A stretch of 64,000 bases of DNA from Actinopolyspora mzabensis (GTDB lineage Bacteria; Actinomycetota; Actinomycetes; Mycobacteriales; Pseudonocardiaceae), in NCBI RefSeq assembly GCF_900101095.1, contig NZ_FNFM01000003.1, positions 186,001 to 250,000 on the forward strand. Reading direction: 5' to 3'. Positions 33,874 through 49,524 of the stretch are shown piece by piece. The position numbers and the translations under genes were made by a program. Position 1 is the stretch's first letter, and every line of letters starts with the position of its first letter. Under the pieces are notes generated by a model. The model was not told the DNA's origin. It was given only the letters and a program-made list of their open reading frames with translations, and did no database searches.

Positions 33874-34733
33874 GTCCCTGGCGTTTCGGAAGAGACGGCG
33901 TGTGGTGTCGGGCTGCTCAGCCGGTCCAGGGTGCCGTCGGTGACGGCGCGTTCAATGCCCGGATCACCCTCTAGCAGGCGTAACGCGATCCATCTGGTGT
34001 TGGCCAGGCCGGGGTACTCCCGGAGCAGTTGTGCTGCCAGTTCGCGGACGGCACGTTCGGTGCGGGCGTCGCCGTGGTGGACGCGCCGTGCCCGGGTGGC
34101 CACCGTACCCAGCGCGACCTGTTCGATCGCCTCCAGCAGCGCGTCCAGTCCCCGGCGACTGCGTGCCGCCATGGGCACCACCGGCACCCCGAGCTCGCGT
34201 GCGAGGTGGCGTTGGTCGAGCGAGAGGCCGTGCCGGTGCGCCTCGTCGATCAGGTTGAGGGCGACCACCACCCGCCCGGTGATCTGCAGGATCTGCAGCA
34301 CGAGGTTGAGGTTGCGTTGCAGGCGGGTGGCGTCGACGACGACCACCGTCACGTCCGGTTGGCCGAACAGCAGGAAGTCCCGTGCGACGTCCTCGTCCTG
34401 ACTGTCGGACAGCAGCGAGTACGTGCCGGGAAGATCGACGAGCTTGTAGCGTCGTCGGCGATACCCGAATCCCCCTTCGGCGCCGGTGACGGTCTTGCCG
34501 GGCCAGTTGCCGACGTGTTGGCGCAACCCGGTCAGCGCGTTGAACACCGTGCTTTTGCCGGTGTTCGGATTACCCGCCAGCGCCACCACGTGGTCGTGGC
34601 CGGAGACGTCCACGCCGAGCGCGCGCAGCTGGGCGGCGTGGTTGAACACGCAGGTTCCGCATGCCGCGCTCGCGGCGGGAGGTGGGCTCGCGTTCGCGTT
34701 CGGGGTCGGTAGGTCTGCTGCCACGGTGCTCAC
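33870..34733 (-). CDS. feoB: FeoB GTPase half, encoded separately
   Basis: 287 residues from ATG at 34733. The G-protein motifs are GNPNTGKST (G1, residues 54-62), DLPG (G3, 100-103) and NLID (G4, 160-163). They are preceded by a CGTC pair at residues 25-28 that may bind iron. The rest of the region is the helical insertion domain. In most bacteria this is fused to the permease half; here a stop/start overlap separates them, and the start overlaps the FeoA stop as well, so FeoA, G domain and permease are made together. Confidence 0.88.
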   Translation of the reverse strand: MSTVAADLPTPNANASPPPAASAACGTCVFNHAAQLRALGVDVSGHDHVVALAGNPNTGKSTVFNALTGLRQHVGNWPGKTVTGAEGGFGYRRRRYKLVDLPGTYSLLSDSQDEDVARDFLLFGQPDVTVVVVDATRLQRNLNLVLQILQITGRVVVALNLIDEAHRHGLSLDQRHLARELGVPVVPMAARSRRGLDALLEAIEQVALGTVATRARRVHHGDARTERAVRELAAQLLREYPGLANTRWIALRLLEGDPGIERAVTDGTLDRLSSPTPHAVSSETPGT

Positions 34734-35005
34734 TCCTGTTCGACGGTGATGTGAATACCGCGGGCCTGTTCGCGGCGCAGCGCGATCACGCTGCCCCGCA
34801 CCAGATAGGCGGTGGGGTCGCCGAGCGGGCTGACGCGATCGATGTGGATGCGGCTGCCGGGCAGCACTCCCAGATCCATCAGGCGCCGTCGCTGGGGCCC
34901 GTGGATGTCCACCGCTGTCACCGTGGCGATCTGGCCCCGTCTGAGCCGGTCCAGCGTCGTGGCCGTGCTCGCCCCCGCAGGGGACCCCTTGTGTACGTTG
35001 CGCAC
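34730..35005 (-). CDS. feoA: FeoA-family protein
   Basis: 91 residues from ATG at 35005. TLDRLRRGQIATVTAVDIHG and RLMDLGVLPGSRIHIDRVSP, then GDPTAYLVRGSVIALRREQA, is the SH3-like FeoA fold, which assists FeoB. It is the first gene of the feo operon, overlapping the GTPase gene by four bases. A likely iron box lies 11 bases upstream. Confidence 0.9.
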   Translation of the reverse strand: MRNVHKGSPAGASTATTLDRLRRGQIATVTAVDIHGPQRRRLMDLGVLPGSRIHIDRVSPLGDPTAYLVRGSVIALRREQARGIHITVEQE

Positions 35006-35015
35006 AATCGAAATT

Positions 35016-35034
35016 TTAGGCGAGCCGAAAACTC
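35016..35034 (-). promoter_or_regulatory. putative DtxR/IdeR-type iron box upstream of feoA
   Basis: TTAGGCGAGCCGAA here agrees at 11 of 14 positions with the start of the DtxR/IdeR consensus (TTAGGTTAGGCTAA as usually written, allowing G/C at position 10). It lies 11 bp before feoA, where bound repressor would block transcription. A further AGCCGAA half (inverted, TTCGGCT) lies at 35056-35062, forming an inverted repeat with 35023-35029. The match was made by eye. Confidence 0.45.
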
Positions 35035-35519
35035 TTGTTAAGTCGAGGCGTAAAATTCGGCTAGGCGTGCTGAAAACGGTTCGTGGCAGCGGATGTGCCC
35101 ACGGCGGGCACGGACGGCGGCAACATCGGCACGTCTTCGGGGCGGCTACGCGCGGCCGACGAGACCCGGGTGCTGCTACGGCCGGGGCGGGTAGGTCTCG
35201 ACGCTCACGAGCGGCTCAGCCCCCGGCGAAGAGGGAGGGTGCACCGCCTCGTGCAAGACCGCGACCACGCGAGGTGACCGCCGCTGCGGATGGTGTGCCC
35301 TGCTGGTTCGGCACCGCAAGCGGCAGCTGCCTCCACGGTGAGCTCGAGGAGCACCACGTGTGGCCACGAAGCGAGGGCGAGTTCGGCCGGCGGCTGCGCG
35401 GAACGAGCTGGCGGTCACTGAGGTGCCGACCCGGGCGGCCGCGCGTCACCTCCGCAGGTACGAGTCCCGCGAAGACCGGAACGGGTGATCGGCAGTGCGG
35501 CACCCGCGAACCACGGTGT
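35035..35519. other. intergenic stretch upstream of feo and 3' of the GT39 gene
   Basis: 485 bp. It contains the feo promoter end and an inverted half-site. Short open frames (for instance 35083-35277) lack any recognisable match. I call no gene. Confidence 0.45.
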
Positions 35520-37145
35520 TCACCACAGACTCATGTGATGCAGCCGGGGCCAGATTTGCGACCAGGGCAGTTTCGGGTCCCGCAGCACCCAGATACGCAT
35601 GTTGTCGTAGTAGGTCCGAAAAGCCGGATCCGTCTCGATCGCCCCCGCCTTGCGGACCGTGCCGAACAGTCGGCGCAGCCGCTGTGGATCACCACCCAGA
35701 TACACCACGCGGCGCACCGCCTCGTCGGGTCTGCCGAAGTACCAGAAGCCGCGGCTGGGACTGTAGACCTCGGAAACACCGCGCTCCGGTCCGTAATGAT
35801 GCAGCGCCCCCGCCGACCAGTAGTCATGGGTGACCACAGCGGAGGGAACACTGTCGTCGGGCAGTTCGCGGTAGACCCGGGCCACCTGCTCGGTGATGCC
35901 GGGCCAGCCGAGACTGGCCGTGACGACCACATTGCGAGGACTGACCCGGGAAACCGGGGTCAACGGCAGCGTGTTCACGGCCGTGCTCAGGCTCAACGCA
36001 CAGCACCCCAGCGCCACCAACGGCAGTGACCACCGACTCCACCGGTGCCGTGAAGCGTCGAGACGCCACCACCACTGTTGCACCACCACGGCACCCGCCC
36101 CGAACAGCACGGCGTAGAGCCCGGCGGTGTAGTAGGAACGACCGCTGATCAGTATGAACACCAGTGTGACCACCAGCGCGGTCACGCCGAGGAACCGGTA
36201 CGGTCGCAACTTCGGGCTGACCAGTAGCCCGCACAACCCCAGCAACGCCAATACCGTGCCCGCCGGGCCGAGCTGATTGACCGAGGCGTTGAGAAACGTC
36301 CACGCGTTGCCGGTCTCGCTGTCGATGACGCGGCCCATGGCCAACTGGGGCCAGCCGTGCCGTGCCTGCCACCACACTCCCGGCAGGACGGAGAGGACCG
36401 CGATCGCACCGCCTGCCCACAGCCCGGGACGAAGCGGTAATCGACGAGGGCCGAACAGTATCGCCACCGGAAGTACGACCAGCCACAGCACGGGAATGAG
36501 GAGTTTGAACTGGACCGCGACGGCGGTGACCACGCCCGCGGCCACCAACGTCGAATTCGCGGGCTCTCCGGCGTGGTGGCGGCGTGCCCAGCGGAGCAAC
36601 AGCCATACGACCCAGGCCCACATCGTCTGGTCGAACGAGTAGGTCACCAGCAGGTGCGCCGACGCCACCAGATGTGGGGTCAACGCGGCCACCCCGGCCA
36701 CGCACGCCTGGGTCAGGCGGGTGGCACCCAGTTCGCGGGCACTCAACGCGCTCAGCACGATGTAACCGACCGCGGCCAGCAGTGACGGTGCCCGCAGCGC
36801 GTTCAGTGATTCGGGGAACAAGGCCTGCATGGCGGCTGCCAGCAGTGGCACGCCGGGGGGCTGGTCGACGTAGCCGAACGCCGGGTGATGGCCCGCGGCC
36901 AAAAAGTAGAGCTCGTCCCCGAAGTAACCGTAGCGGCCCGTGGTCAGCGCGCACGCCACGGCGAAGACGACGGCGATCACTCCGACGGAGACCGCGGCGA
37001 ACGGCACCCCTGCGGTGGCTCGGGGCCCGGGAGCGGGCAGGGTATCGACTCTGCCGGCCGTGGCCGGTGGTGCTGTGGACAATGCGCTCCCTGGCGACAG
37101 AAAAATCGGTCGATTGTGGACCGTTCCGATTATGCCCGATCCCAA
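35520..37145 (-). CDS. GT39/ArnT-like membrane glycosyltransferase
   Basis: 541 residues, start uncertain (ATG 37145 or the GTG nine codons later). About eleven hydrophobic segments; the first periplasmic loop carries YGYFGDELYFLAAGHHPAFG and GYVDQPP, the acidic DE and following motif typical of the PMT/ArnT glycosyltransferase group (GT-C fold) that uses polyprenyl-phosphate sugars. The C-terminal ~140 residues form a soluble outside domain (VYSPSRGFWYFGRP). It would add a sugar to a lipid or protein on the outer face of the membrane. The unknown gene at 37157 precedes it by 11 bp, so they form an operon. Confidence 0.82.
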   Translation of the reverse strand: MGSGIIGTVHNRPIFLSPGSALSTAPPATAGRVDTLPAPGPRATAGVPFAAVSVGVIAVVFAVACALTTGRYGYFGDELYFLAAGHHPAFGYVDQPPGVPLLAAAMQALFPESLNALRAPSLLAAVGYIVLSALSARELGATRLTQACVAGVAALTPHLVASAHLLVTYSFDQTMWAWVVWLLLRWARRHHAGEPANSTLVAAGVVTAVAVQFKLLIPVLWLVVLPVAILFGPRRLPLRPGLWAGGAIAVLSVLPGVWWQARHGWPQLAMGRVIDSETGNAWTFLNASVNQLGPAGTVLALLGLCGLLVSPKLRPYRFLGVTALVVTLVFILISGRSYYTAGLYAVLFGAGAVVVQQWWWRLDASRHRWSRWSLPLVALGCCALSLSTAVNTLPLTPVSRVSPRNVVVTASLGWPGITEQVARVYRELPDDSVPSAVVTHDYWSAGALHHYGPERGVSEVYSPSRGFWYFGRPDEAVRRVVYLGGDPQRLRRLFGTVRKAGAIETDPAFRTYYDNMRIWVLRDPKLPWSQIWPRLHHMSLW

Positions 37146-37156
37146 CCGAAGACGAT

Positions 37157-37624
37157 TCAGCGTTTCTTCGGAGCCGGATCCTTACGAAGCAGGTCCGGGC
37201 CGAGGATCCGCCGCACGACGCGGCGAGCGAGGCTGCGTCGTTTCTGCGGTTGTGCGGCCGCGGATCCGCTCGACGAGCCCGAGGACTGGGTGGGCTCGCC
37301 GGGCGCGGACGACTGGGGTTCTCCTGCGGGCGCGGTGCCGAGGGTGGGCGAGTCGTCCGGCGGGTGGGGAGCGGCGGCCACCGGTTCGGCGGTCAGCCGT
37401 TTGGCGAACTCCGGAGTTTGGTCACGGATGGCGGGTATGAACGGCTGGGTGACTTCGAGCCGTTCCGCCCAGGGCGCCGGGGTCGGTGGTTGCTCCGGGA
37501 AGACGAGTTCTCCCTCGATCCGGGTGGTCAGCGGCCCCGCGTCGCCTACGGCATCCCTGTGCGGTTGTTCGGTTGGCACCATGGGCTGGAACCAGGTCCG
37601 AGCACGGTCGTCTTGAAGTGTCAT
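37157..37624 (-). CDS. hypothetical protein, Pro/Ser-rich with basic C-terminus
   Basis: 155 residues from ATG at 37624. The middle (about residues 75-125) is low complexity (Pro, Ala, Ser, Gly) and the end RRSLARRVVRRILGPDLLRK, KDPAPKKR is strongly basic, like a membrane- or polyanion-binding tail. No family is recognised and there is no signal peptide. It ends 11 bp before the GT39-like gene. A natural coding sequence is supported by codon bias and by this spacing. Confidence 0.6.
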   Translation of the reverse strand: MTLQDDRARTWFQPMVPTEQPHRDAVGDAGPLTTRIEGELVFPEQPPTPAPWAERLEVTQPFIPAIRDQTPEFAKRLTAEPVAAAPHPPDDSPTLGTAPAGEPQSSAPGEPTQSSGSSSGSAAAQPQKRRSLARRVVRRILGPDLLRKDPAPKKR

Positions 37625-38039
37625 CCGTCTTGACTCGTGATAGGAGCAACGGTCAGTAACACCGGTGGGTGATCCCGTCCGGTGTGCCAGAGCCTACCGG
37701 TAACACTGCGATAAAGCACCACCCGTCTGTGCTGGACAACGACATTACAAGATCACAGCGGTGCCGCGACCCCCTTCGGCGCCCCGCTGAGCTGGTGTTG
37801 CGCGGTTCGAAGCGGGGAAGTGTGGCACTTGTTACCTCTTGGTGCCCACGTGGCGGCCGGGCATGTTCCGTGGCCGTCTCGCGACTTTCGGTGTTCGCTC
37901 GACAGCGCCGCCACATTCGGCGGGGCCTGCGGTGCCGAGGTGCGTAACAGTGGCGCTCACGACCCGCGGCGCCCCCGTTTCCACCGGGGCGAAGCTATCC
38001 CGTGGCCGAGCGAGTGAGCAACGGCTTCCCTCCTTCGGG
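37625..38039. other. intergenic region behind the encapsulin operon
   Basis: 415 bp between the polyprenyl synthase stop and the start of the hypothetical gene, both minus strand. I see no gene or obvious rho-independent terminator; a promoter for the downstream pair should be here. Confidence 0.5.
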
Positions 38040-39089
38040 TCAACGATCCCGCCGAGTGATCACCCGCGCCAGTTCCGCCAGTTCCGAACCGGCTTTCCGG
38101 TCCGTGCCCGCCGTGGTCAGCGCTGCCAACGCCAGCGACAACAACCGATCGGCCTCGTCGAGACTGTACTGCTTACCGCCGGCCGCCTCGACGAGTTCGG
38201 CCACTCGGGCCAGTTCCGGAGCCGACAGGGGACGGCCGCGGTAGTACAACGTGCGCAACTGCTCGGCGGCGGAGGTGGCGGTGCTCAGTGCGGCCAACAC
38301 CGGCAGGGTCTTCTTCCTGGCCCGCAGATCGGAGTGGACGGGTTTTCCGGTGTGTTGCGGATCGCCCCAGATACCGAGCAGGTCGTCGACGTGCTGGAAG
38401 GCCAGCCCGAGGTACTCGCCGAAAGCCCGCAGGTCGTCCACATGCGATCCTGTGGCACCTCCGAACGAGGCACCGAGCGCACACGCGCATCCCAACAGCG
38501 AACCGGTTTTGGCGGTGGCCATGCTTTCGCACTCGGCCAGGGTGACGTCGCGGCGACGTTCGAAGTCCATGTCGGCGCTCTGCCCCTGTATCAGCGTGTG
38601 TACCGCGTTGCTGAGGGTGTGTACGGCTTCGGTGGCCGCGGGGTGTTCGCTGGCCACGAGCACGTCGGTGGCCGTGGCCAGCAAGGCGTCTCCGGCGAGG
38701 ATCGCCTCTCCGGACCCGAACACGCTCCAGGCGGTACGGCGGTGTCGGCGGGTTTCGTCGCCGTCGATGACGTCGTCGTGCAGCAACGAGAAATTGTGCA
38801 CCAGCTCCACGGCCACCGCCGCGGGCACCGCCGCCTCGGCAGAGCCGCCCACCGCTTCGGCGGTGAGCAGCACCAGCGCCGAACGCAGCGTCTTGCCGCT
38901 CTGGCCGTTGGCGGGAGCGCCGTGTTCGTCCCGCCACCCCAGGTGATAAGTGGCCACGGCACGGGCTGCCGGAGACAGTTGGTCGACGGTGGCGCGCAGG
39001 GTGGGAAGCACCAGTTCACGGGTGGAATCGAGTATCTCGGCGCCGGATCGGACGTTGCCGGTGTCTTCGACGGTGGCCAAGGTGATCAT
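38040..39089 (-). CDS. polyprenyl diphosphate synthase (class 1 isoprenoid synthase)
   Basis: 349 residues from ATG at 39089 (a GTG at codon 7 is possible). The first Asp-rich motif is LLHDDVIDGDETRRHR (DDVID, residues 105-109) and the second FQHVDDLLGIWGD (235-243). The first motif lacks the two-residue insertion of common bacterial FPP synthases, so chain length cannot be read simply. It would make farnesyl or geranylgeranyl diphosphate from IPP and DMAPP. It stands 195 bp behind shell gene 1 on the same strand, so it is the obvious source of substrate for the terpene cyclase, and could be a second cargo or act just outside the shell. Confidence 0.9.
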   Translation of the reverse strand: MITLATVEDTGNVRSGAEILDSTRELVLPTLRATVDQLSPAARAVATYHLGWRDEHGAPANGQSGKTLRSALVLLTAEAVGGSAEAAVPAAVAVELVHNFSLLHDDVIDGDETRRHRRTAWSVFGSGEAILAGDALLATATDVLVASEHPAATEAVHTLSNAVHTLIQGQSADMDFERRRDVTLAECESMATAKTGSLLGCACALGASFGGATGSHVDDLRAFGEYLGLAFQHVDDLLGIWGDPQHTGKPVHSDLRARKKTLPVLAALSTATSAAEQLRTLYYRGRPLSAPELARVAELVEAAGGKQYSLDEADRLLSLALAALTTAGTDRKAGSELAELARVITRRDR

Positions 39090-39284
39090 CCCTTGTGAGG
39101 AGGGCTCGCGTGCCGGTGGTGAAACGAGTGGTCGTGGCGACGGCCGAGTTCGCAGCGAGGCTCGGGCGGTCGCGCTCGGTGACGCGAGAGGGCGGGAGGT
39201 GGAACTGCTCGTCGGGCGGTCGGGAAAATCGAGGTTCGGTCTCGGCGACTTTCCGGGAGTTTCCGGGAAGTCGTGCCGAAGGGA

Positions 39285-40682
39285 TCAGCGTCCGATCTCG
39301 ACGTGTTCGAGGACGCCGAGGGCGTCGGGCACCAGCACGGCCGCGGAGTAGTAGGCACTGACGAGGTAGGAGATGATGGCCTTGTCGTCGATCCCCATGA
39401 ACCGTGCGTTGAGGCTGGGGGCGCACTCGTGGGGTATGCCGGTCTGGTGCAGCCCGACGACACCCTGACTGTCCTCACCGGTGCGCATCACCAGCACCGA
39501 GCTGGTCCCCGTGTCACTGATCGGGATCTTGTCGCAGGGCAGCAGCGGCACGTCGCGCCAGGAAAGCAGGGTGACACCGTCACGTTGTGTCGTCGCGGGA
39601 CAGACGCCCCGTCGGTTGCATTCCCTGCCGAACGCGGCGATAGCGCGGGGATGCGCCAGGAAGAATTCGGATTTGCGGCGGCGGGAGAGTAGTTCGTCGA
39701 GGTCGTCGGGGGTGGGCGGGCCGGTCCGAGTGTGAATCCGCTGCGACAGATCCGCATTGTGCAACAACCCGAACTCACGATTATTGACCAGCTCCTCCTC
39801 CTGCCGCTCCCGCAACGCCTCAATCGTCAACCGCAACTGCTGCTCAGTCTGATTCATCGGCTGGTTGTACAAATCAGCCACCCGACTGTGCACCCGCAAC
39901 ACCGTCTGCGCCACACTCAACTCATACTCCCGCGGCGCCACCTCATAATCCACATACGTCCCCGCCAACAACGGCTCACCCCAATGACCCGACACCACAT
40001 CAATCGCCGCCTCACCGTGTTTGTTGTGTGGTGGGATCGGCTGGGACTCGGTTCGTCGTAGGTGTCGGGACAGGTTCTCGAAGCGTTCGGTGATCTCCCG
40101 CGCCTCCTGCCGGGACAGGGTGAGCACAGTGCAGGGGGTGATGGCCTTGACGGTGTGTGGCCAGCGGACCTCGTCGTCGGCGAGGATTCGTTGCCCGAGG
40201 TGTTCCCCGTCTGCGAGTACGTCGAGGACGCTGTCGTCACCGTACTCACCGGGGCCGATCTTGTTGGCCTTACCGTGCGCCAACAGCACCACCCGATCAG
40301 CGGTCTCCCCCTGTTCGGTGATCAGTTGACCGGGGGCGTAGTGGTGTTGCGTGAACCGGTCGGCCAACACGGCCAGGGTCGACTCGTCGTCGAACCCGCG
40401 CAGCAACGGCAACTCCCGCAACTCCTGCGGAATCACCCGCACCTGCGCACCCGTGTTGGTAAACGTCAACCGCCCATCACCCAGCTGATACGTCAACCGC
40501 CGGTTGACGCGGTAGGTGCCTGCTTCCACTTGCACCCAGGGCAGCATCCGCAGCAACCACCGCGAGGTGATGCCCTGCATCTGCGGCGTCGACTTCGTGG
40601 TGGTCGACAGCTTGCGGGCGGCTTCGACAGAAAGGCTGGAGTGTTCGGGGGAAACGCCGGTGTCCGGGTCGGAAACAGTCAC
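39285..40682 (-). CDS. family 2B encapsulin-type shell protein 1 (cNMP-binding-like domain plus HK97-like shell)
   Basis: 465 residues from GTG at 40682. A variable N-arm (1-56) precedes a cyclic-nucleotide-binding-like domain at about 86-205 ([40 protein letters not shown]), whose phosphate cassette is atypical ([18 protein letters not shown], lacking the usual Glu/Arg pair). The shell part runs from about 225 to the end ([56 protein letters not shown]). Shells of this type assemble into icosahedral compartments around a cargo enzyme. The gene is downstream of the cyclase and identical to shell 2 from residue 57 on. Its stop precedes the polyprenyl synthase by 195 bp. Confidence 0.9.
39289..40515 (-). 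repeat. 1,227-bp direct repeat, copy 1 (shell gene 1)
   Basis: Identical to 42947-44173 at an offset of 3,658 bp, as judged from the two sequences and from identical translations in several frames of both strands. It covers the codons for residues 57 to the last residues. The first difference on the 5' side is at 40516/44174. Confidence 0.93.
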
Positions 40683-40778
40683 GATGTGCGGTTACCAATC
40701 TGGTCGAGTGCGGCGAAATGCGCGTGGTGGTTCCGGCCGCGCCACACGATGAGCTCGCGGCCGGGGTGGCAGTGGTGG

Positions 40779-42932
40779 TCATGTGGGGAAGGCCTCCACG
40801 GTTGGGGTGTGGGGGCCGGTGGTGGGCAGCGGATGCTGTGTCGCCTGGTTCGCGGGAGTGGGGGTGTGGCTGTGCCGTTCGGGTTCCAGCAGCCAACTCA
40901 ACTCGCCGGTGATCCAGTGGTCGAGATCGTCGAGGTAGTTGTCGAGTTGCCTGCCGGCGGTGGGCGAGAGCCGATACTCGGCACGAGCTTCGGCCATGTC
41001 CCGGTTCAGCAGGGAGTCGAATCGTTGCCGTCGGGTGCGCAGCAGATCGCTCAGTATGCGCACCGCGTGGTGTCTTCGCTCGTCGTGGGATCGTCTCGCT
41101 GTCGGTATCGCTCCATGCGGGGCTTCACACATGCTGTGGCGGTGCGCGAGCACGAGGTCTTCGTGCAGTGCTGTGATCTCGGCGAAGACCTGTCGGAGTG
41201 CACGCATCGCGGGGCTGCGTAGCAATCCGGGGGGTATGTCCGGCCCCAACCGCAGCTCGGTCAGTGCCAGCCGGAGATGGGAGCGGCCGGTTCGGTGTGG
41301 CGTTTCCAGCGGAGCGAGGAAGTCGACGGGATCGCTCCCGACGGGTTCGACCGGTTCCCCCGTCGCGTGGCGCAGGAATTTCCGGATGCGTTGGCGGAAA
41401 CGACGCTGCGCCCGTACCGGGACGCTCGCGGTGGTGCGGGTCCACAGCTCGGCCAGTGTCTGTTCGACCGGTTCGGTGGTGGTGGGCATCTCGTCGGGGT
41501 TCGAGGTGAGGAATTCGGTCAGCCGTGGCCACGGCCGATACTGCTGTAGGGAGGCACCGTCGTTTGCGAACCGTGCCCACAGACTCCAGTCGGCGATCAG
41601 AGCCAGCTCGGTCTCGTCCGCGTGGGGGAGCACTCTGGCCGCGAGTAGGGCGTAATCGGTGTGGGTGCGTCTCGTGCTCGGAAGTGCTTTCTCGTGGATG
41701 CCGTGTCGTTGGGCCCAGGCCGCTGTCCGGGATCGCAACCGTGGCAGCAGCGGGTTCGTGGCGATTTGGTTCGTGTCGTGGATCCGGGGGAACCACTTGG
41801 CGAGTTCCCACCGTGCTCGGGAGTGGCCGGACGTCACCGGTGGGCCGGTGTTGCCCCCCGGCCGGGGATTGTGGACAGTGCTGGTGAAACCGAGGCCGAC
41901 GGGTTGCCGTATCCGGGTGGTGTGGATCGGCCCGGTGTTCATGTAGCGAGTGGATATCGAGTGCCACTCGTGTGCTCCCGCCAACCAGTCACGCAGCCCG
42001 TTGACATAGGACCACACGGTCGTGCGCCGCTGTTCGGGCAGTGCGTGTTCGGTGAGCAGGGTCGGCAGACCATGGTGCAGCGTGGCTTCGAAAAGATGCA
42101 TCCGCCGGGTCAACACCGCGTTGGCGATCTCGGCGGCTCGCCGGGGTGAGCATTCCAGGAAACGTTCGATACCCAGAACCGCGTTGTCGCCTTTTCGTTC
42201 CAGCCGGGTTTCGCGTTGGTAGGAGAACAGGTCGTTGCACAGCCGCAGCGCGTCGGCGAAGCACTCCCGCAACAGCCGTAACGGCCCGCTGCGGGACACG
42301 GCCGGTGGCAGCGAGCTGCCGAGGGTGCATTCGAGCAGTGTGGTTACCCAGTGGGCGCCGCTCGAATAACGGCTGTCGCGAAGGCGAGCCACGGGGTTGG
42401 GTATGGGTGCGAAAGTGCCGGACGATGGCCGTGCTCGCGCTCTCAGCAGGACACGGGTCTCGGCGGCTAGACGTCGCAGCAGGCGGGGAGTGGCCGTTGC
42501 GGCGGTACGCTGCAACAACTCTGCCAGCCCGCCTTCGAGTGGCGTGCACGGCACTTGGTCGGAAGCTGTGGGGGTGCGCAGGAACCCGAAAAGGCGCTGT
42601 ACGTCTCGTCGTGCTTCCGGGGTTGAGTCGGTGCGCTCGCCGTGAGGCGGAAGCTGATCGTCGAGGAGGAACATCCACGCGTACCAGTCGGCGAGCAGGT
42701 TCAGGGTCGCTGCCGAGACGTCCGGATGGGTGTAGCCGGCCAACAGGGCGTAGTCGTGGTCGTCGAATTCGGTTTCGTCGGGAATCGTCGGCGCCGAGGG
42801 CGCGGTTGGGGATAGGCGGAGCAGTCCGTTTTCCCGGGCCCATCGTGTGGTGTGTGACCTGGCGGAGTCGACGTGTGGATTCAGGCGGGCGGGGTGGGGC
42901 GTGTAGAAGTCCGGGAGTTCGAAGGGACGCAT
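40779..42932 (-). CDS. two-domain geosmin-synthase-like terpene cyclase with degenerate second domain (encapsulin cargo candidate)
   Basis: 717 residues from ATG at 42932, where MRPFELPDFYTPHPARLNPH matches the start of geosmin synthases; the open frame extends further but inside shell gene 2. Domain 1 has the Asp motif DDQLP (91-95) and the NSE motif NDLFSYQRE (233-241), so it should ionise farnesyl diphosphate. A 50-residue Pro/Gly/Thr-rich linker (about 331-370) follows. Domain 2 (about 375-690) keeps the fold but not the motifs: WARFANDGASLQQ replaces the DDYYP site and HEDLVLAHRHSM the NSE site, so the germacradienol-to-geosmin step is unlikely. The last ~35 residues are rich in Pro, Thr and His. 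It starts 4 bp after shell 2 stops. The product is probably a sesquiterpene, not certainly geosmin. Confidence 0.88.
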   Translation of the reverse strand: MRPFELPDFYTPHPARLNPHVDSARSHTTRWARENGLLRLSPTAPSAPTIPDETEFDDHDYALLAGYTHPDVSAATLNLLADWYAWMFLLDDQLPPHGERTDSTPEARRDVQRLFGFLRTPTASDQVPCTPLEGGLAELLQRTAATATPRLLRRLAAETRVLLRARARPSSGTFAPIPNPVARLRDSRYSSGAHWVTTLLECTLGSSLPPAVSRSGPLRLLRECFADALRLCNDLFSYQRETRLERKGDNAVLGIERFLECSPRRAAEIANAVLTRRMHLFEATLHHGLPTLLTEHALPEQRRTTVWSYVNGLRDWLAGAHEWHSISTRYMNTGPIHTTRIRQPVGLGFTSTVHNPRPGGNTGPPVTSGHSRARWELAKWFPRIHDTNQIATNPLLPRLRSRTAAWAQRHGIHEKALPSTRRTHTDYALLAARVLPHADETELALIADWSLWARFANDGASLQQYRPWPRLTEFLTSNPDEMPTTTEPVEQTLAELWTRTTASVPVRAQRRFRQRIRKFLRHATGEPVEPVGSDPVDFLAPLETPHRTGRSHLRLALTELRLGPDIPPGLLRSPAMRALRQVFAEITALHEDLVLAHRHSMCEAPHGAIPTARRSHDERRHHAVRILSDLLRTRRQRFDSLLNRDMAEARAEYRLSPTAGRQLDNYLDDLDHWITGELSWLLEPERHSHTPTPANQATQHPLPTTGPHTPTVEAFPT

Positions 42933-42936
42933 ACGA

Positions 42937-44346
42937 TCAGTCCTGACGTCCGATCTCGACGTGTTCGAGGACGCCGAGGGCGTCGGGCACCAGCACGGCC
43001 GCGGAGTAGTAGGCACTGACGAGGTAGGAGATGATGGCCTTGTCGTCGATCCCCATGAACCGTGCGTTGAGGCTGGGGGCGCACTCGTGGGGTATGCCGG
43101 TCTGGTGCAGCCCGACGACACCCTGACTGTCCTCACCGGTGCGCATCACCAGCACCGAGCTGGTCCCCGTGTCACTGATCGGGATCTTGTCGCAGGGCAG
43201 CAGCGGCACGTCGCGCCAGGAAAGCAGGGTGACACCGTCACGTTGTGTCGTCGCGGGACAGACGCCCCGTCGGTTGCATTCCCTGCCGAACGCGGCGATA
43301 GCGCGGGGATGCGCCAGGAAGAATTCGGATTTGCGGCGGCGGGAGAGTAGTTCGTCGAGGTCGTCGGGGGTGGGCGGGCCGGTCCGAGTGTGAATCCGCT
43401 GCGACAGATCCGCATTGTGCAACAACCCGAACTCACGATTATTGACCAGCTCCTCCTCCTGCCGCTCCCGCAACGCCTCAATCGTCAACCGCAACTGCTG
43501 CTCAGTCTGATTCATCGGCTGGTTGTACAAATCAGCCACCCGACTGTGCACCCGCAACACCGTCTGCGCCACACTCAACTCATACTCCCGCGGCGCCACC
43601 TCATAATCCACATACGTCCCCGCCAACAACGGCTCACCCCAATGACCCGACACCACATCAATCGCCGCCTCACCGTGTTTGTTGTGTGGTGGGATCGGCT
43701 GGGACTCGGTTCGTCGTAGGTGTCGGGACAGGTTCTCGAAGCGTTCGGTGATCTCCCGCGCCTCCTGCCGGGACAGGGTGAGCACAGTGCAGGGGGTGAT
43801 GGCCTTGACGGTGTGTGGCCAGCGGACCTCGTCGTCGGCGAGGATTCGTTGCCCGAGGTGTTCCCCGTCTGCGAGTACGTCGAGGACGCTGTCGTCACCG
43901 TACTCACCGGGGCCGATCTTGTTGGCCTTACCGTGCGCCAACAGCACCACCCGATCAGCGGTCTCCCCCTGTTCGGTGATCAGTTGACCGGGGGCGTAGT
44001 GGTGTTGCGTGAACCGGTCGGCCAACACGGCCAGGGTCGACTCGTCGTCGAACCCGCGCAGCAACGGCAACTCCCGCAACTCCTGCGGAATCACCCGCAC
44101 CTGCGCACCCGTGTTGGTAAACGTCAACCGCCCATCACCCAGCTGATACGTCAACCGCCGGTTGACGCGGTAGACACCACCGTTGGCCTGGGTCCAGGGC
44201 AGCATCCGCAGCAACCACCGCGAGGTGATGCCCTGCATCTGCGGCGTCGACTTCGTCGTCGTCGCCAAATTGCGAGCCGCCTCGGTTCCCAGACTCAGCT
44301 GCGAATACGTGTCTGTTCCGGCCGGATCCACCGTGGTCACGTTCAT
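42937..44346 (-). CDS. family 2B encapsulin-type shell protein 2
   Basis: 469 residues from ATG at 44346 (GTG at 44340 has better spacing from GGTGGA). The N-arm ([20 protein letters not shown]) differs from shell 1. From [18 protein letters not shown] onward it appears identical to shell 1, including the cNMP-binding-like domain and the whole HK97-like part, and then ends with two extra residues (GRQD). It is the first gene of the operon and its stop is 4 bp from the cyclase start, so shell 2 and cyclase are translationally coupled. Confidence 0.9.
42947..44173 (-). repeat. 1,227-bp direct repeat, copy 2 (shell gene 2)
   Basis: Second copy of 39289-40515. The two copies are in the same orientation, so recombination between them would delete the cyclase and one shell gene as a 3,658-bp unit. 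Confidence 0.93.
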
Positions 44347-44902
44347 TCCACCAATCTTGTCGCGCACACAGCGTCGAAACAGTATTGAGAAAAACCGAAA
44401 ATACGGATCCGGTGTTCGTCTCGACCTGCCTGTCGTTCCTGCACGCCCGGAAGAGAACCCATCGGATATGGAAACTTTTTTCAAAGCCGGACGATCACGA
44501 GATTAGCAGCATCCACGAGCAGCTAAAAGTCACTCGAAAGTGGAAAGCTCCGCTGCCTTTCCGTGTTCTACGATGTTATCCGTATCTCACCGAATCAGCC
44601 GCTTGATCAGTACACAGTGTAGCCAACAATCCGCCGAACGCGGGTTCGTGTCGAGTTCGATTGTGATTCATAACATCGAACGTCGCGACACACATCATCC
44701 GGAGAGCCGGCATAATGCTCCGTCCGAGGGAGGAAAACCTCGTTGCGCCTTCCGGGGGAGCGCTTGCCAACAGCGGGATCAGTCGCTATTAATGTCTGAC
44801 GATGTTCGACATTTCCTCGGCGTGGGGTTCTCGGGATTTTCGAGATTTCCTCTGGTGTTGCGAACAGGGTCGTACTGCCGTGGTCCGGCGAAGGAGTGAC
44901 AG
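44347..44902. promoter_or_regulatory. 556-bp divergent regulatory region of the encapsulin operon
   Basis: AT-rich by the standard of this genome and without a convincing gene. It holds at least two inverted repeats: GTTCGAT-N13-ATCGAAC at 44655-44681 (perfect 7-bp arms) and AATGTC-N11-GACATT at 44791-44813 (perfect 6-bp arms). Promoters for both the shell/cyclase operon (minus) and the XRE operon (plus) should lie here. The XRE protein is a candidate binder; nothing proves it. Confidence 0.55.
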
Positions 44903-45193
44903 GTGAAGTGGAATCTGCGGCTGGTGGCCGCGCATCGCGGTATCTGGAAAGCGGGGGAGCTGCAGAACAGGCTGGCCGAGTACGGGCTGGCCGTCTCGGC
45001 GGGCAAGATGTCGGGACTGTGGTCCGGCACGCCGGTCAGCCTGAAACTGTCCGACCTCGACATCATCTGCGCCGCGCTCGACTGCGAGATCGGTGAACTG
45101 CTCGTGCCGGAAACAGCGGCGGTTCCGGTCAACGAGCTCGCCGGACGCACCGCCGCGGCAGCACCCCGCGACGACCAACGTACGGGAATGTGA
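44903..45193 (+). CDS. small XRE-type helix-turn-helix regulator
   Basis: 96 residues from GTG at 44903 behind GAAGGAGTGACAG. RLVAAHRGIWKAGELQNRLA, EYGLAVSAGKMSGLWSGTPV and LSDLDIICAALDCEIGELL form the Xre/HTH_26 fold seen in short actinobacterial regulators. The C-terminal 30 residues are Ala-rich and loose. It is divergent from the encapsulin operon and is first of three plus-strand genes (stop TGA directly followed by the next ATG). Confidence 0.82.
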   Translation: MKWNLRLVAAHRGIWKAGELQNRLAEYGLAVSAGKMSGLWSGTPVSLKLSDLDIICAALDCEIGELLVPETAAVPVNELAGRTAAAAPRDDQRTGM

Positions 45194-45964
45194 ATGAACA
45201 CCTACTTCAGCGGTTTGCTGTGGGTCATCGCAGCGGCGGTCTCTGCCGGGCTGATCGGGTACGCGGTACGCCGGTTCGGGCTGGACGAGGGCAGGCCCGG
45301 AAACAACGACGCGGCCGGGCAGGTTTTCGTCATCGTCAGCGGCATGCACGCCGTCGTGTTGGCTTTTGTCATGGTGACTCTTTTCGACGCGGTGGGTGTT
45401 GCTCGGGAAGGGGCGTACCGAGAAGCTCAGAGTCTGGTGGCCGTTTCCTGGGCGGCCGAGGCGCTTTCCGACGAAACCGCCCAGCGCGTCCGCACTCTCA
45501 GCCGGGCCTATGCCCACACGGTCATAGCGCAGGAATGGCCCGGCATGCGGCGGGACCGCGGCCTCTCGGGCAACGGCTGGAGCCAGCTCGACCGGATACG
45601 TGAGGCCGTGCTCGTCGCGCCAGCCAGTGGTGAGTGGCAGGAGGGGCGCAAAGCAGCGGCGATGGATCGTCTCCGCTCGGTCTACCAGCAGCGCCAGGAC
45701 AGGCTGAACATGGCCTTCCACCGGGACGTGTCCACGGTGGTCTGGTTCGTCCTCATCCTCGGAAGCGTGCTCGTGGTGCTGCTGCCGAACCTGTTCGGAG
45801 GAACGCGATTGATGCCGCACGTCATGATCGTGTCCACCCTGGCGGGCACACTCGCACTGCTGGTGTTCGCGGTCTATCATCTGCAGAACCCGTTCGCCGG
45901 GGACTCCCGAATCGATCCCGCCGCGTTCCGCTGGGCCCTGGAACGACTCGGCTCCGATCGATGA
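45194..45964 (+). CDS. DUF4239-like membrane protein
   Basis: 256 residues from ATG at 45194. Two hydrophobic helices at the N-terminus (about 7-27, 46-66), a long charged middle part (EAQSLVAVSWAAEALSDETA, RVRTLSRAYAHTVIAQEWPG) and two more helices near 170-215, ending HLQNPFAGDSRIDPAAFRWA. This layout is that of DUF4239 (bestrophin-like) membrane proteins. The function is unknown. It is translationally coupled to the XRE gene before it and to the propeller protein after it (ATGA overlap). Confidence 0.75.
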   Translation: MNTYFSGLLWVIAAAVSAGLIGYAVRRFGLDEGRPGNNDAAGQVFVIVSGMHAVVLAFVMVTLFDAVGVAREGAYREAQSLVAVSWAAEALSDETAQRVRTLSRAYAHTVIAQEWPGMRRDRGLSGNGWSQLDRIREAVLVAPASGEWQEGRKAAAMDRLRSVYQQRQDRLNMAFHRDVSTVVWFVLILGSVLVVLLPNLFGGTRLMPHVMIVSTLAGTLALLVFAVYHLQNPFAGDSRIDPAAFRWALERLGSDR

Positions 45965-47157
45965 GGGTGGGCCGTCGCAGCTTGCGGGCGATCTCGGCGC
46001 TGCTGACCGCGCTGGCACTGCTCGGCTTGTCCACGCCGGTCGTGGTGGCACGAGAGCGGGCGGTGGCACCGGGCTGCTCACTGCTGCACGTCACGAGTAC
46101 ACCCGGAACGCCCCCCGCGCTACGGCGCGTCACGCTGCCCGGGATGACAATCGAGGCGCTGCCGCCACCTCCCGGATCCGTCGAGGCACTGGGCTATTCC
46201 GCCGCGCAGGGAAAGGCCTACGGGCTCAGCAACACCGGCACATTCCCCTTCCGGGAGTCGCGCGTGATAACCGTCGAACCCCAGGGGAGCACGCACGACC
46301 TCGGTCCGCTACGCCACCGTGCTGCGCGGATGCCACCACCGTGGGCGGTCGACATCCGGGCGGGAGCCATCGACGGGGACGAGTGGTATCTCGTCGCCGG
46401 GCATCGGCTCTACACCGTCGACATCGATCCCGACAGCGCCACCTATCTGGCCATAACCCACGTTACGTGGTTAGCACCGTGGCTCGTTCCGCTGTCGGTC
46501 GGCGATCTCGCCGTCACCTCCGACGGAACACTGCTCACCGTGACGACCAACTATCAGCACGAAACGGTGCTGCTCGAAATCGCCGTGGACGACGGAACGG
46601 TCGTCGGTACCGAGCCGGCGGCACTCCCGCCAGCCCGGTACGGAGCAGTCGTCATCACCGACGACGGCAGCCGCTACGCCGTCGCCGACAACGTCGCAGG
46701 CCACAGTAGGTTCTATCAGGTCGGGGCCGATGCCGCCGGGACTGTCGAACTGGCTCGGGGCAGGCCGTTGCACCACAACGACGCGGCAGGGTGCCTTCGC
46801 TCCGAACCCCAACCACCACCCACACCCCCACCGTCCCCCACGAGGTCCCGCTCCCCGTCGAGACCACCGGAAACAACCACCACACCGTCCTCGCCCACCG
46901 AACCCCCTCCGGTAGCGACCACACCATCGCCCCCCACCAACACCTCGAAGTGGAGCAGTACGCCGCGCCAGCCCCACTCCCCGCGGCCACCGGACACATC
47001 TGCACCACAGTCCCGCGCACCGAACGCACCCGCACTTCCCACACCGCCACGGCCCCGACCCGTGCGCCCCGTAGCCACGGAAACCAAACGACAATGGGTG
47101 CTGGCCACGCTACTGCTGATCATCGGAGCCGGGGTGGTACTGCGGCGACTCCGTTGA
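45961..47157 (+). CDS. secreted/anchored beta-propeller protein with Pro-rich stalk
   Basis: 398 residues from ATG at 45961, overlapping the DUF4239 stop. The N-terminal 33 residues form a signal peptide (RRSLRAISALLTALALLGLS). Blades follow (LGYSAAQGKAYGLSNTGT, WYLVAGHRLYTVDID, DLAVTSDGTLLTVTTNY, AVVITDDGSRYAVADN). From about residue 278 the chain is Pro/Ser/Thr-rich for ~90 residues, then a C-terminal hydrophobic helix and RRLR end. It is likely anchored in the membrane with the propeller outside the wall. Function unknown; similar DUF6923-like propellers are cell-surface proteins. Confidence 0.72.
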   Translation: MRVGRRSLRAISALLTALALLGLSTPVVVARERAVAPGCSLLHVTSTPGTPPALRRVTLPGMTIEALPPPPGSVEALGYSAAQGKAYGLSNTGTFPFRESRVITVEPQGSTHDLGPLRHRAARMPPPWAVDIRAGAIDGDEWYLVAGHRLYTVDIDPDSATYLAITHVTWLAPWLVPLSVGDLAVTSDGTLLTVTTNYQHETVLLEIAVDDGTVVGTEPAALPPARYGAVVITDDGSRYAVADNVAGHSRFYQVGADAAGTVELARGRPLHHNDAAGCLRSEPQPPPTPPPSPTRSRSPSRPPETTTTPSSPTEPPPVATTPSPPTNTSKWSSTPRQPHSPRPPDTSAPQSRAPNAPALPTPPRPRPVRPVATETKRQWVLATLLLIIGAGVVLRRLR

Positions 47158-47194
47158 GCCGGCCGCGTTCGAGTGCCACCCGTGAGAGCTGGAA

Positions 47195-48010
47195 TCAGGC
47201 CGGTGCCGTCAACAGTGTGGTCAGAGTGGGCCAGGCCACGAATGCCGCCACCACCAGACATCCGGACTCGACGAACTTCTCGATACCCGCACCGGCGGGA
47301 AACCGCAGCGATTCGGGAAGCACGTGTTGTCGGTCCCACCGGGCCCCCGGGCAACCGGTGCCGCCCCGGCACCGATCACAGGCACGTTTGAACGGCCACA
47401 CGAACGGGATCCCCGAATTGGTGGCCCCGTCCCCGACACTGTGCACGATCATCCCCAGCGCCACGATCGCCCCCAGCCACACACCGGCGTCGGCGACGGC
47501 ATGGGCATACACCAACAGGCCGGTGACCAGCAGCGCGTACAGCGGTGGTGCGGCACGACGCTGCAACTGCAGCGTACCGCGCACCTGGGTGGGTAACGAC
47601 CAACGCAGCGAACGCAGCGCGGCGCTGGTGAGCACGTACACCGCTACGATGCCCACCCATTTCGACGCCAGGGTGGCACCGGCCAACGCCGCCCCCACCA
47701 GCAGCGCGAAAACCGGTGTGTGGATGAGTCCTCGGTGTTCGCCGGCCTTACCGGAAGCCCTGGGGTCGTGGGGTAAACGGGTACGGCGATAGGCCCACCT
47801 GGCCAGCGTCTGCAACAGTTCCGCCGCCCCTCGGGTGATCGGCCCGGCTGATTTGGTGATGGTGGACTGGTCGTGGTCGATATCGGGCAGTAAGGCCGCC
47901 CCCGCCCCGGCCAGCGCCCCCAGGGCGATGCCCGGTGGGGTGGGTTGGGCGAAGCTGGCCACCGTGGTGCCGCTCAACAGGCCCGTGGCGGCGTGCGCAC
48001 CGTTCATCAT
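47195..48010 (-). CDS. DUF457-like membrane-bound metal-dependent hydrolase (YdjM/LexA-binding type)
   Basis: 271 residues from ATG at 48010 (ATG 48007 also possible). The first motif MNGAHAATGLLSG and the acidic LLPDIDHDQS, then HRGLIHTPVFALL, are the His/Asp clusters of this family. About six hydrophobic segments complete it. A zinc-like CRGGTGCPG pair is near residue 230. Family members are membrane proteins of uncertain reaction. It converges on the propeller gene and is divergent from the MFS gene at 48265. Confidence 0.82.
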   Translation of the reverse strand: MMNGAHAATGLLSGTTVASFAQPTPPGIALGALAGAGAALLPDIDHDQSTITKSAGPITRGAAELLQTLARWAYRRTRLPHDPRASGKAGEHRGLIHTPVFALLVGAALAGATLASKWVGIVAVYVLTSAALRSLRWSLPTQVRGTLQLQRRAAPPLYALLVTGLLVYAHAVADAGVWLGAIVALGMIVHSVGDGATNSGIPFVWPFKRACDRCRGGTGCPGARWDRQHVLPESLRFPAGAGIEKFVESGCLVVAAFVAWPTLTTLLTAPA

Positions 48011-48264
48011 CGCAGAAAGACCCCTCTGTCTCGTTCGGAAGTGAACCAGCGCCCGAGCAGCGGGCCGCCGGTCGGGCCTGGATCGGCCCGGCCGAAACAA
48101 GATCACACCTGCGGTGGAGGCACTCGAAGGGGAGCCACGACGTGCTGGACCACTGTGGAAAGTGCTATTGTGTCGCGCCGCGTGTCATCGCGGAGTCCTT
48201 CGACGACGCTGCCGGACGTGGTGGCGACTCGGGGATTCGCCGAGTCCGTCGAGAGCGAACTTCC

Positions 48265-49524
48265 ATGAAGGTCTGCGACAGGCTGCTCGACACTCGTCCG
48301 ATGCGGTCCAGCACCGCTTTCCGTCGCTGGTGGGCAGGCAGCACACTGTCCGTATTCGGTGGGCAGCTGACGACCGTGGCCGTGCTCTACCAGACCTGGG
48401 AAACCACGGGCAGCTCGCTGGCGGTGGGCAGCGTGGGAATCGCGCGTGCCGTGCCCGCGGTGCTGTTCGGGCTGCTCGGCGGGTCGGTGGCCGACACCGT
48501 CGATCGAAGGCGACTGGTGCTGTTGACCACGTCGGGACAGTTCGCCTGCGCCGGAGCGCTGACCCTACAGGCACTGGCAGGTCTCGGCTCGTGGTGGTTG
48601 CTGCTGATGCTGGTCGCCGCGCAGGAGAGCTGCAGTGCCACCGGTGCCCCCGCCCGCAGGAGTTTCACCGCCCGACTGCTGCCGGACAGGCAACTCCCCG
48701 CCGGGATGGCGCTGAACCACCTCGGCATGCAGACGGCCGTGCTCTCAGGACCTGCTCTCGCTGGAGTGGTCATCGCCGCGCGGGGAGTGGAGGGCTGCTA
48801 CCTGCTGAACGCGATGACCTTCGCGGCAGCGTTCCACGCCGTGCTGCGCCTGCCGAGCATGCCCCCGGTTTCCGGCGGTACCCGCCGGAAACCGGGGGCG
48901 ATCGGCGCGGGACTGCGTTTCGTGGCGAGCAGACCCGAGTTGCACGGGGCGTTTCTCACCGATGTCCTGGCCACCGTCCTCGCCATGCCCACCGTGTTGT
49001 TCCCGATGATCAATGAACAGCGGTTCGGCGGAAGCCCGGAGACGCTCGGCCTGTTCTGGTCCGCCCTGTCGCTGGGAGGTATCGCGGCGGGCTTGGCTTC
49101 CGGCCTGATCACACGCCTCTACCGTCCAGGAGTGGTCATGCTGGCCGCGGCGGGAGTGTGGGCGGTGGCCCTGACCGGATTCGGCGTGGCTCAGCAGCTG
49201 TGGCTGCTGCTCGGATGTCTCACCCTCGGTGGGGCCGCCGACACGATCTCGGTGATCTCACGGGGCACGCTGGTGCAACTGGCGATCCCGGACTCCCATC
49301 GCGGCAGGATCAGTTCCGTGGACCACATCGTTGGTTCCGCCGGGCCGGATCTCGGCGAGTTCCGGGGCGGTCTGGTGGCGGGGGCCACCTCGGCCACGTT
49401 CGCCGCGGTCTCCGGGGCGCTCTGCTGCGGTCTGGGGATCCTAACTCTCGCGGTGACGAACCGACCGTTGCGACGGTTCACCCTCCCGAACCATCCGAAC
49501 GGGCGAGCACTCGAACACGGCTGA
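48265..49524 (+). CDS. MFS-type transporter (MFS_3 / enterobactin-exporter-like)
   Basis: 419 residues from ATG at 48265 (ATG at 48301 is an alternative). Twelve hydrophobic segments, with the loop-2-3 motif GGSVADTVDRRRLVLLTTSG and the SATGAPARRSFTARLLP stretch of this group. It probably exports a small molecule. The 254 bp before it hold only the divergent promoters. Confidence 0.85.
   Translation: MKVCDRLLDTRPMRSSTAFRRWWAGSTLSVFGGQLTTVAVLYQTWETTGSSLAVGSVGIARAVPAVLFGLLGGSVADTVDRRRLVLLTTSGQFACAGALTLQALAGLGSWWLLLMLVAAQESCSATGAPARRSFTARLLPDRQLPAGMALNHLGMQTAVLSGPALAGVVIAARGVEGCYLLNAMTFAAAFHAVLRLPSMPPVSGGTRRKPGAIGAGLRFVASRPELHGAFLTDVLATVLAMPTVLFPMINEQRFGGSPETLGLFWSALSLGGIAAGLASGLITRLYRPGVVMLAAAGVWAVALTGFGVAQQLWLLLGCLTLGGAADTISVISRGTLVQLAIPDSHRGRISSVDHIVGSAGPDLGEFRGGLVAGATSATFAAVSGALCCGLGILTLAVTNRPLRRFTLPNHPNGRALEHG

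Follow-up and report, generated by a model that had tools for sequence, protein, structure and literature searches.

Within a stretch of 64,000 nucleotides from Actinopolyspora mzabensis (contig NZ_FNFM01000003.1, positions 186,001 to 250,000; here 'the window') are four consecutive genes which appear to specify a two-component encapsulin, i.e., one having two shell proteins (Enc1 and Enc2), along with a terpene cyclase and a polyprenyl diphosphate synthase. With moderate confidence, the cyclase is viewed here as possessing at most one active site, which would give rise to a sesquiterpene in a single step rather than to geosmin. That is, though of geosmin-synthase lineage, this enzyme has a second domain which still models as a terpene-synthase fold but from which catalytic motifs have been lost, and which probably is inactive. 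The features in question, all on the minus strand, are as follows (aa, amino acids; bp, base pairs; NSE, the Asn-Ser-Glu motif).

42937..44346, minus: Enc1, Family 2B encapsulin shell gene, 469 aa, ATG at 44346; Pfam SrpI-like and cNMP_binding, and NF041163; N-arm and last two residues Enc1-type, body Enc2-type
42947..44173, minus: Enc1 copy of a 1227-bp exact repeat, with a further exact 63 bp at 44194-44256
40779..42932, minus: two-domain terpene cyclase of geosmin-synthase lineage, 717 aa; Terpene_syn_C_2, NF041168
41928..42932, minus: cyclase N-domain, residues 1-335; D91 D92, N233 D234 S237 E241, and R329 Y330 retained
41766..41927, minus: cyclase linker, residues 336-389; degraded loading motif PVGLGFTS
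40887..41765, minus: cyclase C-domain, residues 390-682; predicted class I fold, without the NSE triad and with a broken Asp-rich motif
39285..40682, minus: Enc2, Family 2B encapsulin shell gene, 465 aa, GTG start; Pfam, NF041163, 9bix_A
39289..40515, minus: Enc2 copy of the 1227-bp exact repeat, with a further exact 63 bp at 40536-40598
38040..39089, minus: polyprenyl diphosphate synthase, 349 aa; PF00348, NF041169; DDVID motif intact

By family, Enc1 and Enc2 are Family 2B encapsulin shells, with their assembly into a closed shell predicted. Each scores 776 bits against the Family 2B shell model (NF041163 of NCBIfam, cut-off of 400), the Pfam SrpI-like domain (PF19307) is matched with E values of 1.3e-136 and 1.6e-136, and a cNMP-binding domain (PF00027) is present in both. 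In Enc2 the latter spans residues 113-200, i.e., ahead of SrpI-like residues 217-465, and Enc1 displays the same order of cNMP-binding domain and then C-terminal HK97 part. An earlier, sequence-only reading of this DNA had posited just such HK97-like, cNMP-binding shells and had proposed a profile search of both as a check, which they pass. Also confirmed are its consecutive order of shell, cyclase, shell, and prenyl synthase, its 4-bp gap (found between the Enc1 stop codon and the cyclase ATG), and its placement of a prenyl synthase behind the shells (polyprenyl_synt, PF00348, E of 2.3e-58). Taken as a whole, that reading is partly supported. The two shell genes lie less than 10 kb apart with cargo-type genes alongside, and the solved chains closest to Enc2 are 9bix and 9bje (9bix_A at E of 1.7e-198), which are two-component shells of S. 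lydicus (PMC12407261).

What did not hold up is the presentation of this arrangement as unusual. Geosmin-synthase-like cyclases are described as Family 2B cargo, with 165 systems having both cyclase and prenyltransferase (PMC8346489), and a cyclase can be situated between Enc1 and Enc2, with a prenyltransferase directly following Enc2 and with mixed shells shown (PMC12407261). As both order and type of cargo have been published, the operon type is not new. Published two-component operons share with the window, that is, the order of Enc1, cyclase, Enc2, and prenyltransferase, an HK97-like domain with inserted cNMP-binding domain, and actinobacterial hosts. Rejection of a 2-methylisoborneol pathway, as argued previously, does stand: The single-domain cargo model NF041167 reaches only 42.5 bits against a cut-off of 400, and no methyltransferase family is seen among the 18 distinct open reading frames (ORFs) scanned with Pfam from among those found at 32461-49521.

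The cyclase matches Terpene_syn_C_2 in two stretches (E of 1.1e-39), and both of its domains model as class I folds, with the predicted local distance difference test score (pLDDT) falling below 50 over residues 335-389. By sequence as well as by fold, the best solved match to the N-domain is that of the S. coelicolor germacradienol/geosmin synthase (5dw7, 5dz2), at 40-42% identity in the aligned part, but with the window's Asp-rich motif altered. The N-domain is predicted to be catalytically competent, having both an NSE motif (NDLFSYQRE) and an Asp-rich motif (DDQLPPH, with a later acid lost). Within the C-domain, FANDGASL is seen instead of GDDYFP, i.e., with the first Asp replaced by Asn and the second kept, HEDLVLAHRH is found where NDLFSYQKE would be expected, the sensor Arg is replaced, and the RY pair reads RH. 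With its second domain lacking the NSE triad and its Asp-rich motif broken, the cyclase thus is not a bifunctional enzyme of the geosmin type. Of the earlier description of a geosmin-synthase-like cyclase, ancestry and two-domain architecture therefore survive, and the bifunctional type does not.

This condition is not peculiar to one assembly. All four close orthologues (G000, G001, G005, and G006, as genomes are designated here) keep the N-domain motifs, have lost the C-domain NSE triad, and possess a broken C-domain Asp-rich motif, with loss of C-domain motifs only partial in the cyclase of G002. A dead C-domain was seen in none of the 25 best other cyclases (L051-L075), drawn from matches occurring in 267 of 390 family genomes and including two from the genus's own locus A, which is described below; all 25 have DD and ND..S...E in both domains. 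Among five named outside hits, L078-L080 have both sets of motifs, L081 diverges where the second NSE motif ends, and L082 is single-domain, while two named Actinopolyspora hits are the window-type cyclase. Geosmin-lineage cargo with a dead second domain likewise is absent from the titles and abstract openings of the literature matches listed, which cover few subscription papers or preprints.

A useful point of reference is found in the same genome. Locus A (L005, on contig C12 of an assembly of 24 contigs) has a canonical geosmin synthase of 781 aa between Enc1 and Enc2, with a prenyl synthase following, and is present in all ten genomes of the genus examined. Its gene order and families are those of the window locus (locus B), but the two cyclases are only about 32% identical, with motifs intact in that of locus A, which scores 1209 bits on the geosmin-synthase-like cargo model NF041168. 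A recent duplication of locus A as the source of locus B was considered and rejected: Enc1 and Enc2 rows split in the shell tree, with A and B members each in separate starred groups, and locus B prenyl synthases form a starred clade of their own, albeit in trees whose deep forks are in many cases weak and in several cases open or weak. Going by these trees, the window locus would be an older paralogue rather than a recent copy of locus A. A third geosmin synthase, canonical and two-domain, is found on contig C15 (L087 6616-8838, minus strand), with no shell gene near it, the genome's four shell genes all being on contigs C9 and C12.

As to how the window system might work, the prenyl synthase would provide a C15 or C20 diphosphate, and Enc1 and Enc2 may, by analogy to S. 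lydicus, build a T=1 shell in which the two are mixed, approximately 28 nm in size. The N-domain, as the cyclase's sole possible working site, would then convert farnesyl diphosphate (FPP) to a germacradienol-type or other simple sesquiterpene, with the C-domain presumably a folded but catalytically dead partner and with no geosmin formed. Loss of C-domain activity from a geosmin synthase leaves germacradienol.

The prenyl synthase scores 463.6 bits against the encapsulin cargo prenyltransferase model NF041169, exceeding its cut-off of 450. Its best functionally named model is that of the geranylgeranyl diphosphate (GGPP) synthase IdsB, at 335 bits and thereby below the cut-off of 475, because of which a C15 product is unsettled. 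The first Asp-rich motif is DDVID with F at -5, which I take to be ambiguous between C15 and C20, and the product would be FPP or GGPP. Cargo prenyltransferases are expected to display a disordered N-terminal region of 50-100 residues. Here 62 residues precede the Pfam match, but the solved chain 3nf2 aligns from residue 19, and most of those 62 residues may be ordered.

Loading of the cyclase is a separate matter. The motif GPTGLGTSAAR is found between the domains and at the C-terminus of geosmin-synthase-like Family 2B cyclases (PMC8346489). In the window cyclase the linker instead reads PVGLGFTS and the C-terminal copy is gone. The two have in common the two terpene-synthase domains, lineage, and operon position (PMC8346489; NF041168), but differ in the window's lost or broken second-domain motifs, in its loading motifs, and in score (482 bits against a cut-off of 1200). 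From the earlier notion of an enclosed sesquiterpene factory fed by its own prenyl synthase, then, shells and prenyl synthase may be retained, with loading doubtful and a C15 product uncertain. The shell-distant geosmin synthase of contig C15 possesses GPNGLGTSAS in its linker and GPTGLGTAAARIA at its C-terminus. Because these are loading-type motifs, that enzyme may be loaded in trans into the shell of locus A; alternatively, the motif may serve some other use.

Several considerations weigh against the view of an encapsulated, one-step cyclase. The N-domain Asp-rich motif, DDQLPPH, replaces DDHFLEH, the later acid being gone. The C-domain still has the second Asp of its Asp-rich motif as well as the Arg of its RY pair, and since these remain the domain can be described only as presumably dead. 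The shortfall on NF041168 is large, and loss of GPTGLGT from the C-terminus, along with its alteration in the linker, renders loading doubtful. In G009 (L044 9006-9557), in addition, what lies between the two shell genes is an in-frame remnant of 183 aa, retaining the cyclase's first residues and the C-domain end and tail, and as the prenyl synthase there is whole, a working cyclase would seem not to be essential in that genome. The view moreover is drawn from gene families and order, motif state, selection, and predicted folds.

The shells of the window pose a question of their own, as they are identical over 1227 bp. Outside of this tract they differ partly in the first 58 codons plus in Enc1's last two residues; the locus A shells of the same genome, by comparison, share about 70% DNA identity, with a longest exact run of 16 bp. 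Fifteen columns separate Enc1 from Enc2 across 9 and 11 other shells of the genus, as compiled (like the shell tree) without Enc1 of G001 (N run), Enc1 of G006 (broken frame), and both G009 shells (N runs). At 12 of these 15 columns the window Enc1 displays the Enc2 state, including RRRK. The latter is the published Enc2 motif, and published Enc1/Enc2 pairs differ in two conserved motifs (PMC12407261). The window pair, unlike those, has RRRK in both members, a consequence of the tract common to the two, and one for which assembly error may be responsible.

Gene conversion and misassembly are, in this case, inseparable. Evenly balanced, in my estimation, is whether the identity is an assembly artefact, i.e., with the Enc2 path written into both copies and with the real Enc1 possessing, like that of G005, a cNMP domain of its own and a VWK motif. 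In that single-contig genome Enc1 and Enc2 remain distinct overall (differing at 113 of 369 sites of the cNMP part and at 85 of 310 sites of the motif part), and drafts of the genus contain N runs in this same part of the shell genes, i.e., 855 N in A. alba Enc1 (G001; also public record L077) and 935 and 1010 N in the two G009 shells. The window itself, however, is without any N, and no stray Enc1-specific contig is present in the assembly, where only the four known shell genes match, although short contigs possibly are not covered. The exact tract also begins at the first block shared by G005's two shells and ends in a 3' block that is nearly shared in G005, but conversion through the same blocks would result in the same tract ends. 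Indeed, the G005 shells hold exact blocks of 127 and 329 bp in common, within which they display 0 differences from each other versus 2 and 9 from the window. As these blocks match each other better than they match the window, conversion between these shell genes does seem to happen.

It is unlikely, though worth stating, that natural conversion has left the window with a nearly one-component encapsulin, one in which the N-arm of Enc1 is still its own whereas body, cNMP domain, and luminal loop are those of Enc2, and in which the cyclase is lacking in loading motif and half of its catalysis. Were that so, the locus would represent a natural series illustrating the dissolution of a two-component shell and its cargo, the dead cyclase domain then being retained in a structural or loading role. 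Conversion between encapsulin shell genes was not found among literature matches as listed by title and abstract opening, with the same coverage as above.

The main rival, held only tentatively but to be taken seriously, has the cyclase as a non-functional relic, with the locus persisting, where it does so, as a shell-plus-prenyltransferase encapsulin that is being lost from the genus. Selection bears on this in both directions. From six pairs of G000, G001, G005, and G006 (Nei-Gojobori-type ratios of nonsynonymous to synonymous change, dN/dS, by own script, with G009, G002, and every window-locus Enc1 left out), the window-locus cyclase has a dN/dS of 0.45-0.57 (N-domain 0.37-0.58, C-domain 0.40-0.46) versus 0.10-0.24 for the locus A geosmin synthase (N-domain 0.08-0.26, C-domain 0.08-0.13). 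Enc2 of the window locus has 0.13-0.31 and the prenyl synthase 0.06-0.35, while the cyclase linker, consisting of only 50 codons, has 0.83-0.88 in the three G000 pairs and 0.35-1.13 in the others. Constraint on the window cyclase is relaxed approximately two- to five-fold relative to locus A, with both domains affected, yet is not neutral, and ratios in both are well below 1.

Erosion across the genus similarly cuts both ways. The cyclase is whole in only four of ten genomes, with a divergent version in G002 and the 183-aa remnant in G009, its tree branches are very long, its loading motifs are gone, and the Enc1 frame of G006 (A. righensis) is broken by a net 5-base insertion, possibly a draft error. 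What G003 retains is a scar, consisting of just 141 residues from the C-terminus of the prenyl synthase and situated next to a gene that is found past the operon in the window. In G004, G007, and G008 the flank is present, but the 17-kb stretches read contain no gene of the operon; the only shell genes in the whole genomes of these four are the two of locus A. Synteny of the flanks extends across the six genomes possessing the locus. Two copies of a 136-aa ORF (L089 10513-10923 and 12600-13010) are present in G004 within the interval available to the operon; their printed starts are identical, and they look, presumably, transposase-like. Beyond the genus, the nearest Enc2 relatives (68-73% identical) are in genus g35, and all eight g35 loci fetched (L124-L129, L132, and L133) consist of shell, shell, and prenyl synthase, the latter behind as in the window but without any cyclase detected over the 16-kb stretches covered.

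Against a relic, the cyclase frame is open in all four close orthologues and in G002, and the N-domain catalytic residues are retained. Nor is the cyclase the sole part to go, prenyl synthase and shells likewise having been lost from G003 and from the three genomes without the operon. Under the preferred, one-step interpretation the locus may nevertheless be moving away from a geosmin-type system and towards one of shell plus prenyltransferase, because constraint is relaxed in the cyclase and held tighter in Enc2 and the prenyl synthase. Very improbable is the original proposal of an enclosed, geosmin-like factory with both cyclase domains working, for which two-domain architecture and ancestry speak, but against which stand the C-domain's missing triad, replaced first Asp and sensor Arg, and RH for RY, along with canonical geosmin synthases elsewhere in the genome.

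On the question of why some encapsulins have two shell proteins, this genus offers a natural comparison, i.e., a constrained, encapsulated geosmin operon found in all ten genomes examined beside a paralogue with eroded cyclase and loading motif. In one assembly the Enc1/Enc2 difference is eroded as well, while Enc2 and prenyl synthase stay more constrained, which suggests that the luminal loop of Enc1 and the GPTGLGT motif may have roles in loading. More practically, architecture alone is insufficient for annotating such cyclases as geosmin synthases, and paired shell genes are a place where draft assemblies may be in error.

Elsewhere in the family, L130 and L131 (G372 and G373, of another genus) have four shell genes each, with one shell pair enclosing a divergent, fully motif-bearing cyclase whose identity to the geosmin synthase of locus A is about 49%. 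A consensus scan for regulatory elements in the window did not exceed shuffled sequence, with 0 promoters and with 3 terminators versus 4.8 expected. Divergent from the operon (44903-45964, plus strand) are a gene of Cro/C1-type helix-turn-helix (HTH) and, immediately following, one for a bestrophin-like membrane protein, the latter whole only in the six genomes having the operon, with a short fragment in G008. The HTH_26 gene (44903-45193, plus strand) was considered as an operon-specific regulator and rejected, as it is present also in G004, G007, and G008, which lack the operon, and thus is not tied to it. FeoB, lastly, is split in the window into two minus-strand ORFs (32458-33873 and 33870-34733) which overlap by 4 bases, consisting of a GTPase part and then a Gate plus FeoB_C part.

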